A stretch of 64,000 bases of DNA from Lacibacter sp. H375 (GTDB lineage: Bacteria > Bacteroidota > Bacteroidia > Chitinophagales > Chitinophagaceae), in the NCBI RefSeq assembly GCF_037892425.1, contig NZ_JBBKTT010000001.1, forward strand, positions 2,542,001 through 2,606,000. Reading direction: 5' to 3'. The translations under genes were made by a program, and so were the position numbers. This document shows, in pieces, positions 58,507 through 63,140 of the stretch. The notes beneath the pieces are model-generated. The model did not search any database and was not told where the DNA came from. It was given only the letters and a program-made list of their open reading frames with translations. Positions within the stretch are counted from its first letter, which is position 1. Every line of letters begins with the position of its first letter.

Positions 58507-59502
58507 ATGAAACAACGTACACAGCGCATAATTCTGTACGCTTTACTGCTTATTACGTTTTGTAATCAAAGTCTGCAGGCTCAGATTGGATTGTCTTCTG
58601 CAAATTCCCGTTTTGAAATTGGTTTAGATTTTGGCCCGATGAGTTTCCTTGGCGACCTTGGTGGTAACCGTGGACGAGGAGGCTATGGTCCTAAAGACAA
58701 TAACCTGCCGGTAACGAATGCGATCATTGGTATTTCTGCTTCTTATTATCCTGCAGAGTGGATCGGGTTCCGTTTGTCAGGCAACTATGGTAAAATGGAA
58801 GGCGATGATCGACTGGTGAAGCAAAAGCAACCTGCTGATACATGGGAAGGTTCAAGAAAATACCGAAACCTTACATTCCGCTCACCTTTATACGAAGCAT
58901 ACGCTGCACTTGAAATTTATCCCACAGCATTTATAAGCTTAAAGAACGGATCTGGATTACCACGTTTCCGTCCATATGGTATCGTTGGTTTCGGCGTCTT
59001 TAAATTTAAACCACAAGGTTTATATAAAGATCCTGCAGGTAATGAATCATGGATCGATCTGAAACCACTCCGGTTAGAGGGACAAGGAATGGTTGAAACA
59101 GGAATTCCGGAATACAGTTTAACGAATTATGCTATTCCAATGGGAGTAGGTATTAAATATGATATTACAGAACGTGTAACATTTGCTGTTGAACTCATCC
59201 ATCGCAAAACTGGAAGTGATTATGTTGATGATGTAAGTAATAAATTTATTGATCCGGCTTTGTTCGATCAGTATTTAACACCAACCCAGGCAACGTATGC
59301 TAAATACCTGGCCAACCCAAGTTCATTTTATCCGAATTCAAATCCGGCTTATACTCCTTACCGTGCGGGTAAGAAAAGAGGTAATCCATTAAAAAATGAT
59401 TCTTATTTCTCCAGTACATTCAGACTTACCTGGAAGATCGGTGATGTGTACGCAGACTGGTTCCGAAATAAGAATTCAATGAAATGCCCGCAGTACTTTT
59501 AG
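58507..59502 (+). CDS. Outer-membrane beta-barrel protein (DUF6089/porin-like)
   Basis: 331 residues from ATG 58507; signal peptide ends CNQSLQAQ. The body reads as amphipathic strands beginning FEIGLDFGPMSFLGDLGGNR, then IIGISASYYPAEWIGFRLSG, PYGIVGFGVFKFKPQG, IPMGVGIKYDITERVTFAVE and STFRLTWKIGDVYADWF. This is like the small DUF6089-type barrels of Bacteroidota. Function unknown. The frame opens at 58393, but only ATG 58507 begins a signal peptide. It is the last sizeable + gene before the repeat array. Confidence 0.78.
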   Translation: MKQRTQRIILYALLLITFCNQSLQAQIGLSSANSRFEIGLDFGPMSFLGDLGGNRGRGGYGPKDNNLPVTNAIIGISASYYPAEWIGFRLSGNYGKMEGDDRLVKQKQPADTWEGSRKYRNLTFRSPLYEAYAALEIYPTAFISLKNGSGLPRFRPYGIVGFGVFKFKPQGLYKDPAGNESWIDLKPLRLEGQGMVETGIPEYSLTNYAIPMGVGIKYDITERVTFAVELIHRKTGSDYVDDVSNKFIDPALFDQYLTPTQATYAKYLANPSSFYPNSNPAYTPYRAGKKRGNPLKNDSYFSSTFRLTWKIGDVYADWFRNKNSMKCPQYF

Positions 59503-59676: not shown

Positions 59677-59682
59677 CTTCTT

Positions 59683-59790
59683 AAGCAAAGTATGTAATAA
59701 ACGTTAGTCCGTACCCTTCTCATAATGTTCCAATCCTGTGAAAATCCAGTGAGAACCAGCGACCGATATTTATTTCATCATGCTTTGCTT
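59683..59790 (+). repeat. Array unit 1
   Basis: Outer stem AAGCAAAGTATG with CATGCTTTGCTT. The inner hairpin pairs TTCTCA with TGAGAA exactly. It has ATGTAATAAACG where the other units have ATGCAATAAACG. Confidence 0.75.
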
Positions 59791-59831
59791 ATTCTTTTAA
59801 TTACATAAACTTTTCTATATGTAAACTCATT

Positions 59832-59939
59832 AGCAAAGTATGCAATAAACGTTAGTCCGTACCCTTTCTAAAGTTTCCAATCCTGTGAAAATCTGAAGAG
59901 AGAACCAGAGACCGATATTTATTTCACCATGCTTTGCTT
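59832..59939 (+). repeat. Array unit 2
   Basis: Outer stem AGCAAAGTATG with CATGCTTTGCT. The inner hairpin can pair CTTTCT with AGAGAG. An additional AATAAA/TTTATT pairing extends the outer stem after a small internal loop. Confidence 0.75.
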
Positions 59940-59979
59940 TTACTTTTAATTACACAAACTATCTATATGTAAACTCTTT

Positions 59980-60091
59980 GAACGAAGTATGCAATAAACG
60001 TTAATCCGTACCCCTTTTCTCATTTTTTTTTAATCTTGAGAAAAAGAAAAAAAGAGAACCTGATCGATATTTATTTCACCATGCTTCGTTC
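59980..60091 (+). repeat. Array unit 3 (diverged, compensated stem)
   Basis: Outer stem GAACGAAGTATG with CATGCTTCGTTC: both arms differ from the other units in a way that keeps pairing. The centre is replaced by CTTTTCTCA, a T-run, then TGAGAAAAAG, which again forms a hairpin. Confidence 0.75.
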
Positions 60092-60131
60092 ATTTTTTTC
60101 CCAGTGTTAAACCAAGACAATCCTAATGATT

Positions 60132-60240
60132 TGGCAAAGTATGCAATAAACGTTAGTCCGAAACCCTTTCTAAAGTTTCCAATCCTGTGAAAATCTAAAG
60201 AGAGAACCCTGGACGGATATTTATTTTACCATGCTTTGCT
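60132..60240 (+). repeat. Array unit 4
   Basis: Outer stem GGCAAAGTATG with CATGCTTTGCT. The centre is almost the same as unit 2. The spacer before it (60092-60131) is unrelated to the first two spacers. Confidence 0.75.
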
Positions 60241-60271
60241 TTGTTTCTCTTGGTCCGTACTCTATCCTGTT

Positions 60272-60301
60272 GCCCCCCATTGGTTCGGGGGGCTTTTTTT
60301 T
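60272..60301 (+). terminator. Strong intrinsic terminator after the array
   Basis: GCCCCCC / GGGGGGC with an 8-nt loop followed by eight T. On - no T-run follows the stem, so it serves + strand transcription that crosses the array. Confidence 0.92.
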
Positions 60302-60305
60302 GTTC

Positions 60306-63140
60306 TTACAGTTCAACTTTTAGAAATCTTGCAGTGTGGCTTGCTTTACAATTGAGCAAATCTTCCGGTGTTCCTTCAAATAAAATTTCACCGCCACCAT
60401 CGCCGCCTTCAGGACCAAGATCAATAATATGATCTGCAACTTTAATTACATCCATATTGTGTTCAATTACCAATACTGTATTACCTCTATCGGTTAATTT
60501 ATTAAGGACATCAAGTAAGTGTTGAATATCCTGGAAATGTAAACCTGTAGTTGGTTCATCAAGAATATAAAATGTTTTGCCCGTATCTTTTTTCGCAAGC
60601 TCTGTTGATAGTTTTACACGTTGTGCTTCACCACCGCTCAATGTAACTGCACTTTGCCCGAGTGTGATGTAACCAAGCCCCACATCTTCCAATACTTTTA
60701 TTTTACGATAGAGGTAAGGAACTGGTTGAAAAAACTCCACTGCTTCTTCCACCGTCATATCCAATATGTCTGCAATTGATTTCCCTTTATAACGAATCTC
60801 CAGTGTTTCCCGGTTATAACGTTTGCCGTTACATTTTTCGCAATGTACATATACATCTGGTAAGAAATTCATTTCAATAACCCGCATTCCACCACCTTCA
60901 CAAACATCGCACCTTCCTGTCTTTACGTTGAATGAAAAACGACCTGCATTATAACCCCTGATCTTTGCTTCAGGTATTGCTGCAAATAATGTCCTTATCT
61001 CTGTAAAGAATCCGCAATAAGTGGCAGGGTTGCTTCTTGGTGTACGACCAATAGGCGACTGATCAATTTCAATCACCTTGTCAATATGTTCCAATCCTTT
61101 AATGCTTTTGTAGGGCATTGGATTGGCTTTTGAATCGTAACAATATTTGCTAAGGATAGGATAAAGTGTTTCGTTGATGAGTGTACTCTTGCCACTTCCA
61201 CTAACACCGGTAACAACAATCAGCTTACCCAACGGAAATTTAGCACTCACATTATTGAGATTGTTACCGCTTGCACCTTTCAACTCAATCGATTTTCCGT
61301 TTCCTTTTCTACGCTCTTTCGGCACGGGTATTGATTTTTCGCCGTTCAGGTATTTGGCGGTATCACTTTTTGATTCAAGTACATCCTTTGGTGATCCGGC
61401 AGATACAATTGTTCCACCATGTTTACCAGCTTGCGGACCAACATCAATTAAATGATCAGCAGCAAGCATAATATCTTTATCATGTTCAACAACAAGCACA
61501 CTGTTGCCTACATCACGAAGATTTTTTAATGCTTCAATCAAACGATGGTTATCACGTTGATGCAAACCAATACTTGGTTCATCTAAAATATACGTGATGC
61601 CCTGCAGTTGAGAGCCGATCTGTGTTGCTAAACGTATACGCTGACTTTCGCCTCCACTCAATGTTCTGCTTGAACGGTTGAGTGTGAGATAAGTTAAACC
61701 AACGTTCAATAAAAATTGTAATCGTTCCCTGATCTCTTTCAACACATCTTTGGCGATGGCTGCCTGTTTGTTACTGATACGAAGCTCCAAACCATCGAAC
61801 CATGCAGCAAGATTATCAAGATTCAAATCACTTAATTCAGAAATATTGCGGTCTTCAATCTTAAACCAAAGACTTTCTTTTTTCAGTCTTGCACCATTAC
61901 AACTTCCACAGGTTTGTAATGTCATGAATTGCGTTACCCATTCACGTAACCCTTCTGTACTGGTTGTAGAAACAAACCAACGTTTTAACATCGGGATGAT
62001 GCCTTCGTAACTGCCTGTGTATTCATGCGGAACCGTTTCATCACTTGCATCGACTTCCAATGTTGCACTGATATTCTTATCGCCAAACAACAAAAGGTCA
62101 AGTTGTTCTTTTGGAAGTTTGTCAACCGGCACATCTAATTTGATTTTATATTTTTTTGCAAAAGCAATTACTTGTTGAAACACACTTGCATCACGTTCTT
62201 CACCTAATGGTGCAATGCCACCTTCCTTTACAGTTAGTGTTTGATCAGGCAGCACGAGCTCCATATCTATGGTATACACATTACCCAATCCTTTACAGGT
62301 TGGGCATGCGCCATAAGGAGAGTTAAATGAAAATGCATTGGGTGATGGTTCTTCATAACTCAGCCCGGTATCTTCACACATCAATTGTTTTGAATAAGAA
62401 ACAACGCCACTCTTTTCTGTTTCAATAAACATCAGGTCTTTCCCGATTTTCAATGTTTGTTGCACGCTCTGGCTGATACGCACCCGAAAATCATCACTCA
62501 CTTTCAAACGATCAACCACTACTTCAATATCATGGATCTTATAACGGTCAACCTGCATCTTAGGGGTAATGTCCTGTATCTCGCCATCAACCCTAACTTT
62601 TACATAGCCTTTCTTACGAATGTCTTCAAACAATTCACGATAATGTCCTTTACGTCCTCTTACCAACGGAGCAAGTAATGAAACTTTTTGTCCATCAAAA
62701 CGATTGAAAATATTTTCTACAATTTCTTCTTCACTCCACTTCACCATTTTCTTTCCTGTGTTATAGGAATAAGCTTCACTCGCTCTTGCATAGAGCAGGC
62801 GAAGGAAATCATACACTTCAGTAATTGTTCCTACAGTTGAGCGTGGATTTTTATTGGTTGTTTTTTGTTCAATGGAAATAACAGGAGATAGGCCGGTGAT
62901 CTTATCAACATCAGGCCGCTCCATATCGCCCACAAACTGCCGGGCATATGCGCCAAATGTTTCCATGTAGCGGCGTTGTCCTTCAGCATAAATTGTATCG
63001 AATGCCAAAGATGATTTTCCACTGCCGCTAATACCGGTAATCACCACCAGTTTGTTCTTGGGAATACTTACATCAATGTTTTTCAGGTTATGCACCCTTG
63101 CTCCCGATACTTCTATCTGATCATTAGTTGAGTCGCTCAT
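60306..63140 (-). CDS. uvrA: Excinuclease ABC subunit A
   Basis: 944 residues, the usual length. Two ABC ATPase modules are present: Walker A GISGSGKS near residue 38 and GVSGSGKST in the second half; signature [20 protein letters not shown] and [20 protein letters not shown]. Zinc-binding CxxC pairs are seen in [28 protein letters not shown], and CDVCEGGGM with [10 protein letters not shown]. It is the damage-recognition ATPase of nucleotide excision repair. It is convergent with the array transcript; the stop lies 5 bp from the T-tract of that terminator. Confidence 0.98.

Follow-up and report, generated by a model that had tools for sequence, protein, structure and literature searches.

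Several similar structured small RNAs, in numbers that vary from species to species, are known from LhrC of Listeria and Qrr of Vibrio, where each RNA is described with its own promoter and terminator. The array described here lies in a 64,000-nucleotide stretch of the genome of Lacibacter sp. H375 (the window) and likewise holds similar structured units in a species-dependent number, but it has one terminator, no promoter was found between its units, and Rfam gives no sequence relation to LhrC or Qrr. Its place directly behind a coding gene, with the terminator of that gene at its end, is that of small RNAs derived from mRNA 3′ ends, from which it differs in its tandem units and in its persistence despite changes of the upstream gene. 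REP and BIME palindromes also stand in tandem behind genes; in contrast to them, the array is confined to a single locus, longer, covarying and read from one strand, and instead of the dispersal of REP or MITE elements it shows four places in the genome, all within the array. The units resemble 6S and 6S-Flavo RNA (RF01685) in length (about 110 nt), occurrence in Bacteroidota, long hairpin and large internal loop, and differ in their tandem arrangement, narrow distribution and lack of a match to the model, to which control genomes were silent too. CsrB-like decoy RNAs present a short motif repeated in hairpin loops, as in the array, but the motif is a different one and a binder of the array is putative. 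A candidate motif named GUCCY-hairpin is listed for Bacteroidetes and Proteobacteria, with no Rfam number given there (PMC2864571); going by that name its hairpin would have a conserved GUCCY, where the units mostly have GUCCG. The literature search, which reached its sources in part, returned no paper on this hairpin element.

Organization of the array

Four units of 112–116 nt follow each other head to tail (59681–60243, + strand; Table 1), with start-to-start distances of 148, 149 and 152 nt and pairwise identities of 72–90%. The first-pass annotation had correctly recognized four copies at a period of about 150 nt bounded by inverted repeats, since the unit ends pair with each other, while its unit length of about 108 nt was too short. 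The block that it gave as common to all copies, CAATAAACGTTAGTCCG, is exact in units 2 and 4, whereas unit 1 starts with a T and unit 3 reads TTAATCCG. Spacers 1 and 2 are conserved, as had been noted, none of 500 shuffles being as good. Unit 1 begins 4 nt past the stop codon of the small ORF, for which a Pfam search gave no match, and the tail beyond unit 4 recurs at the 3′ end of the final unit wherever a Lacibacter locus was read. The GC-rich terminator already proposed on the + strand corresponds to a stem followed by T8; one such stem was found against a shuffle mean of 0.5, so that the scan by itself is weak proof, and relatives keep a GC-rich stem and a T-run at this place, with differing loop letters.

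Table 1. Features of the array and its flanks (positions in the window)
Feature	Position	Strand	Remarks
Outer-membrane beta-barrel gene	58507..59502	+	Pfam OMP_b-brl 29.8 bits, cut-off 28.7
Small ORF, 44 codons	59542..59676	+	one membrane stretch predicted by eye
Unit 1	59681..59792	+	repeat, fold and alignment analysis
Spacer 1	59793..59828	.	86% like spacer 2
Unit 2	59829..59941	+	also the query of the genome search
Spacer 2	59942..59977	.	compared with spacer 1
Unit 3	59978..60093	+	most divergent, 72–74% identity to other units
Spacer 3	60094..60129	.	no relation to spacers 1 and 2
Unit 4 (last)	60130..60243	+	RUCCGUACCC degenerate: GTCCGAAACCC
Tail TTTCTCTTGGTCCGTACTCTATCC past last unit	60244..60267	+	motif copy 60253–60263
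Terminator: GC-rich stem 60272–60293 and T-run	60272..60301	+	stem scan
uvrA, convergent	60306..63140	-	named from sequence; same place in relatives

Several classes of repeated element were considered and rejected. The exclusion of a CRISPR array in the first-pass annotation holds, given the unit length, the identity of only 72–90% and two alike spacers out of three; no cas genes were seen by eye among the ORFs of 54–64 kb, and no transposase, also as stated there, turned up in these ORFs or in a Pfam scan of five neighbours. Integron attC sites are set aside on their core sites, RYYYAAC and GTTRRRY, against unit ends read by eye as AGCAAAG and CTTTGCT. Gene order speaks against the RNA of a type III toxin-antitoxin system, which consists of tandem repeats before a nuclease toxin gene, whereas downstream of the array come a terminator and the convergent uvrA.

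Unit 2, searched against its own genome, matched the other three units (E 9e-40, 1e-34 and 3e-21) and nothing besides the array. A scan of the whole window with Rfam 15 gave no match at the gathering score, and for the array region, with E values up to 10 admitted, the best match scored 19.1 bits where the cut-off is 83.

Structure and strand

In the structure model, each unit is one long hairpin, whose closing stem leads into an internal loop, with RUCCGUACCC on the 5′ side of that loop, and from there to a small end hairpin. On the + strand, units 1–4 fold with z-scores of -5.9, -4.1, -4.5 and -3.9, none of 200 shuffles being as good for any of them. The - strand is weaker in all four (-2.3, -1.2, -4.1 and -1.9), although unit 3 is nearly as structured there as on the + strand. 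Folded as a whole, the 626-nt stretch gives four separate hairpins (z -8.3, 20 shuffles). Within this full-length fold, ACCAAGA in spacer 3 can pair around unit 4 with TCTTGGT in the tail (60244–60255); the single-unit species examined showed no spacer-3 side of this pairing.

In an alignment of 33 sequences, 92.0% of the cells belonging to the 24 stem pairs are paired, while shuffled alignments give 87.5% and slid ones 37–50%; the alignment was made by sequence and the structure taken from 26 of its rows, which biases this figure in favour of the structure. Twelve pairs show two-sided changes (5.6 in shuffles), while the variety of pair types stands out less (27, compared with 23.1 in shuffles, of which 14 of 500 reach 27). 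G-U cells number 114 and A-C cells 9. Given this pairing, the two-sided changes and the G-U bias, the units are structured RNA read from the + strand. Conservation of letters in the internal and end loops goes further than a stem would require. The first-pass proposal is thus borne out in part: an array of structured RNA units of an unassigned family, with a terminator at its end, is supported, whereas its transcription, its cutting into pieces of about 100 nt and its binding by a protein are putative. An RNA family without Rfam match is well supported, and the array looks like a real, so far unnamed RNA.

Distribution and copy number in Lacibacter

A BLAST search with unit 2 found 11 of 59 genomes including its own, all of one genus, or 10 once the match in G005, which by eye lies inside a coding stretch, is dropped. 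A covariance model built from 26 units of these 10 genomes (R1) matches 13 of 14 Lacibacter genomes at E <= 0.1, or 12 without G005, whose match (E 0.03) has other genes around it (L058); a second match in G002 (E 0.05) was left out of the unit counts. Twelve of the 14 genomes therefore carry one to five units, and none was found in G005 and G006 (both 2.4 Mb). There are five units in G013, four in the window, three in G003, G011 and G012, two in G001, G004 and G009, and one in G002, G010, G007 and G008. All 12 loci have the order GNAT gene, outer-membrane gene, small ORF, units and uvrA, and the small ORF is kept in every one, with mainly third-position changes.

Orthologous units, compared in nine pairs from four species pairs, show 92–98% identity, whereas third codon positions in the same species pairs are 64–76% identical in uvrA and 67–81% in the outer-membrane gene. 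The spacers are conserved as well (four pairs, 83–97%, with some gaps). In a tree of the units, whose 30 inner branches include 10 with good support and 13 drawn open, first, middle and last types cluster across species, and units 2–4 of G013 appear as a recent expansion. Multiplied units were seen in Lacibacter only, those of sister genera being single-copy.

The locus in other genera

Among 294 genomes of the family, R1 recovered the hairpin in two other genera, namely an uncultured one (three genomes, E 1e-10 to 4e-8) and that of Ginsengibacter (two genomes, E 1e-5 and 3e-4), each time behind the outer-membrane gene. A second model (R2), trained on both of these genera so that its scores there are not independent, added three genomes of Ginsengibacter's genus among 394 (G344, G391 and G411), with two hairpins beside the outer-membrane gene and uvrA and one beside GNAT and uvrA. 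An order-wide search of 396 genomes gave no match at E <= 0.01 outside the family; searches of more than 40 genomes ran with stricter filters, to which weak matches are lost. Finally, a pattern scan of 84,980 species returned 14 stretches, each adjoined by the GNAT gene, uvrA or both, the pattern having been written after the first orthologues were known and some stretches coming from genomes already counted. Independent support comes from R1, the three new R2 matches and the pattern scan. Neither of the outcomes that the first-pass annotation had named as refuting came about: Rfam gave no match, and related genomes carry orthologues.

In relatives the hairpin keeps the same chromosomal spot, which in Lacibacter lies between the outer-membrane gene with the small ORF and uvrA. 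Across three genera, neighbour genes come and go at this locus while the hairpin stays. In L127, 68 nt separate the GNAT gene and the hairpin, hence there is no outer-membrane gene; in G257, no uvrA match was found at the locus; and in L113, L115 and L138 the frame before the hairpin resembles by eye the secretion-tail ORF of other genera. In the other genera, a T-run directly follows the closing stem, and the hairpin can take up all the space that convergent genes leave between them.

Other matches were set aside. Those of R1 in G282, G084, G269, G169 and G126 (E 0.017–0.088) have other genes around them (L064–L068), those of R2 in G118 and G168 (L116 and L119) have no locus genes, and those of R2 in G016 and G028 (L117 and L118) are not orthologues but belong to the deacetylase-linked element described below. 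At its actual locus, G169, of Ginsengibacter's genus, carries a hairpin (L087:2485-2612; 19-pair closing stem, z -5.0) that has CTGAAACCACA in common with the hairpins of that genus; it was missed by R1 and R2 and is absent from all counts, so absence by model is not absence. Elsewhere in other genera (L085, L086, L094–L098), an ORF like a secretion-system tail domain sits right after the outer-membrane gene in place of the small ORF and the hairpin, its Pfam score for Por_Secre_tail (25.1 bits) being below the cut-off of 27.

A motif shared with a second element

RTCCGTACYCT, with at most one mismatch, occurs in three of the four units and in the tail, and six times in the window against 1.2 expected. 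In 11 genomes of the family, six of them picked because the motif had already been seen there, RATCCGTACCCT occurs 39 times and the reversed pattern 3 times; among 117 evenly drawn family genomes, ATCCGTACCCTAT is present in 72 (63 of 100 genera) and its reversed pattern in 13. The single units of G007 and G008 contain an exact RATCCGTACCCTAT, and 7 of 27 outer-membrane loci of other genera have RATCCGTACCCT in the interval from that gene to the following ORF. The idea that AATCCGTACCCT stems from a general context of translation starts was rejected, as the sequence is missing at 43 ORF starts of the window (ORFs of 150 aa or more, each assumed to start at its first ATG).

Nearly all loci fetched for ATCCGTACCCTAT (29 of 30) represent one element, a GC-rich hairpin followed by GTTTTTAATCCGTACCCTATGAAAAC or nearly so. 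Its layout is GGGCCNGGGTRGANACCCNGGCCC, then GTTTTTAATCCGTACCCTATGAAAAC; it is intergenic and often behind a gene containing FDDGP, a same-strand FDDGP frame being present in 22 of 28 loci, which we take to encode a polysaccharide deacetylase. The Lacibacter sp. H375 copy lies outside the window (G000:C1:1838034-1838046, - strand, L164), with relatives at L169–L198. The element has no Rfam match; its first hairpin has five pairs with two-sided changes and its second stem none, and its further pair types are no better than shuffles (320 of 500). These loci were chosen by the motif, whose constancy there is partly a matter of selection. The motif common to the units and this element hints at a shared binding factor. 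Another Lacibacter element, recognized by eye, has GATCCGTACCCTAT between the arms CAACGAACCGGC and GCCGGTGTTG (G000:C1:978371-978382, - strand, L145; also L143 and L163).

Discussion

We rank first, at roughly even odds, the reading of the array as a regulatory RNA, amplified in tandem, with which the transcript of the outer-membrane gene and small ORF would end. RNA polymerase would run through the units and halt at the terminator; the units would work as a chain, or once cut apart in the spacers, and their loops would be open to a cellular partner. Each added tandem copy would give more dose per transcript, and copy number would thereby be tuned species by species. Since the spacers are conserved as well, cutting within them is a guess. 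This reading is favoured by the covariation with its controls, the G-U bias, unit identity above that of third codon positions, the single locus in three genera and the position-specific unit types together with the recent expansion in G013. It is also favoured by a promoter scan of 22 loci, run without shuffle control: a Bacteroidetes-type promoter (TTG..TANNTTTG) was absent within 300 nt upstream in 20, and in the remaining two the match lies inside the upstream gene; the scan covers that one consensus, and other promoter types would escape it. Against it, neither Ginsengibacter's genus nor the uncultured one has RUCCGUACCC intact in its orthologues, and in the window the motif is degenerate in unit 4.

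Ranked second, as possible if clearly less probable, is a 3′ end that acts purely in cis: in the manner of tandem palindromes behind a gene, the hairpins would do no more than terminate transcription and protect the mRNA upstream against 3′ exonucleases. The T-run right after the closing stem in other genera, the hairpin filling the gap between convergent genes, the start of unit 1 so close to the small ORF and the lack of an own promoter of the type scanned for would all suit it, but loop letters conserved beyond the needs of the stem would not be expected, nor would a hairpin persisting in L127 without the outer-membrane gene. The same broken motif weighs on the third-ranked and rather improbable reading, in which the units sequester a putative factor that recognizes RAUCCGUACCC and acts on other transcripts, for example that of the deacetylase-linked element, even though the excess of RATCCGTACCCT over its reversed pattern in the partly motif-picked genomes, that of ATCCGTACCCTAT across the family and the exact RATCCGTACCCTAT of the single units point towards it. 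A 6S-like RNA imitating an open promoter is very unlikely: the long closing stem, large internal loop and end hairpin would fit, and the silence of the 6S-Flavo model in 20 relatives extends to all 14 control genomes, yet the window has no Rfam 6S match and the hairpin is narrowly distributed. We give slightly less credence still to a DNA repeat, be it a dispersed palindrome, a mobile element or a recombination site. Tandem inverted repeats would suggest one, but the array is a single locus in the genome, and every confirmed copy in a relative sits at the corresponding place; relatives have so far shown no dispersed copies, and the G-U pairs favour one strand.

With copy numbers that go from one to five in a single genus, the array offers a natural series for studying the effects of RNA dose. 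The motif common to the units and the second element is a concrete bait for the putative RNA-binding factor. Should the array be, as we consider rather improbable, a tandem-amplified decoy for a candidate Chitinophagaceae RNA-binding factor with the site RAUCCGUACCCUAU, controlling a family-wide set of transcripts, the deacetylase-linked hairpin element would be the most conserved member of that set.
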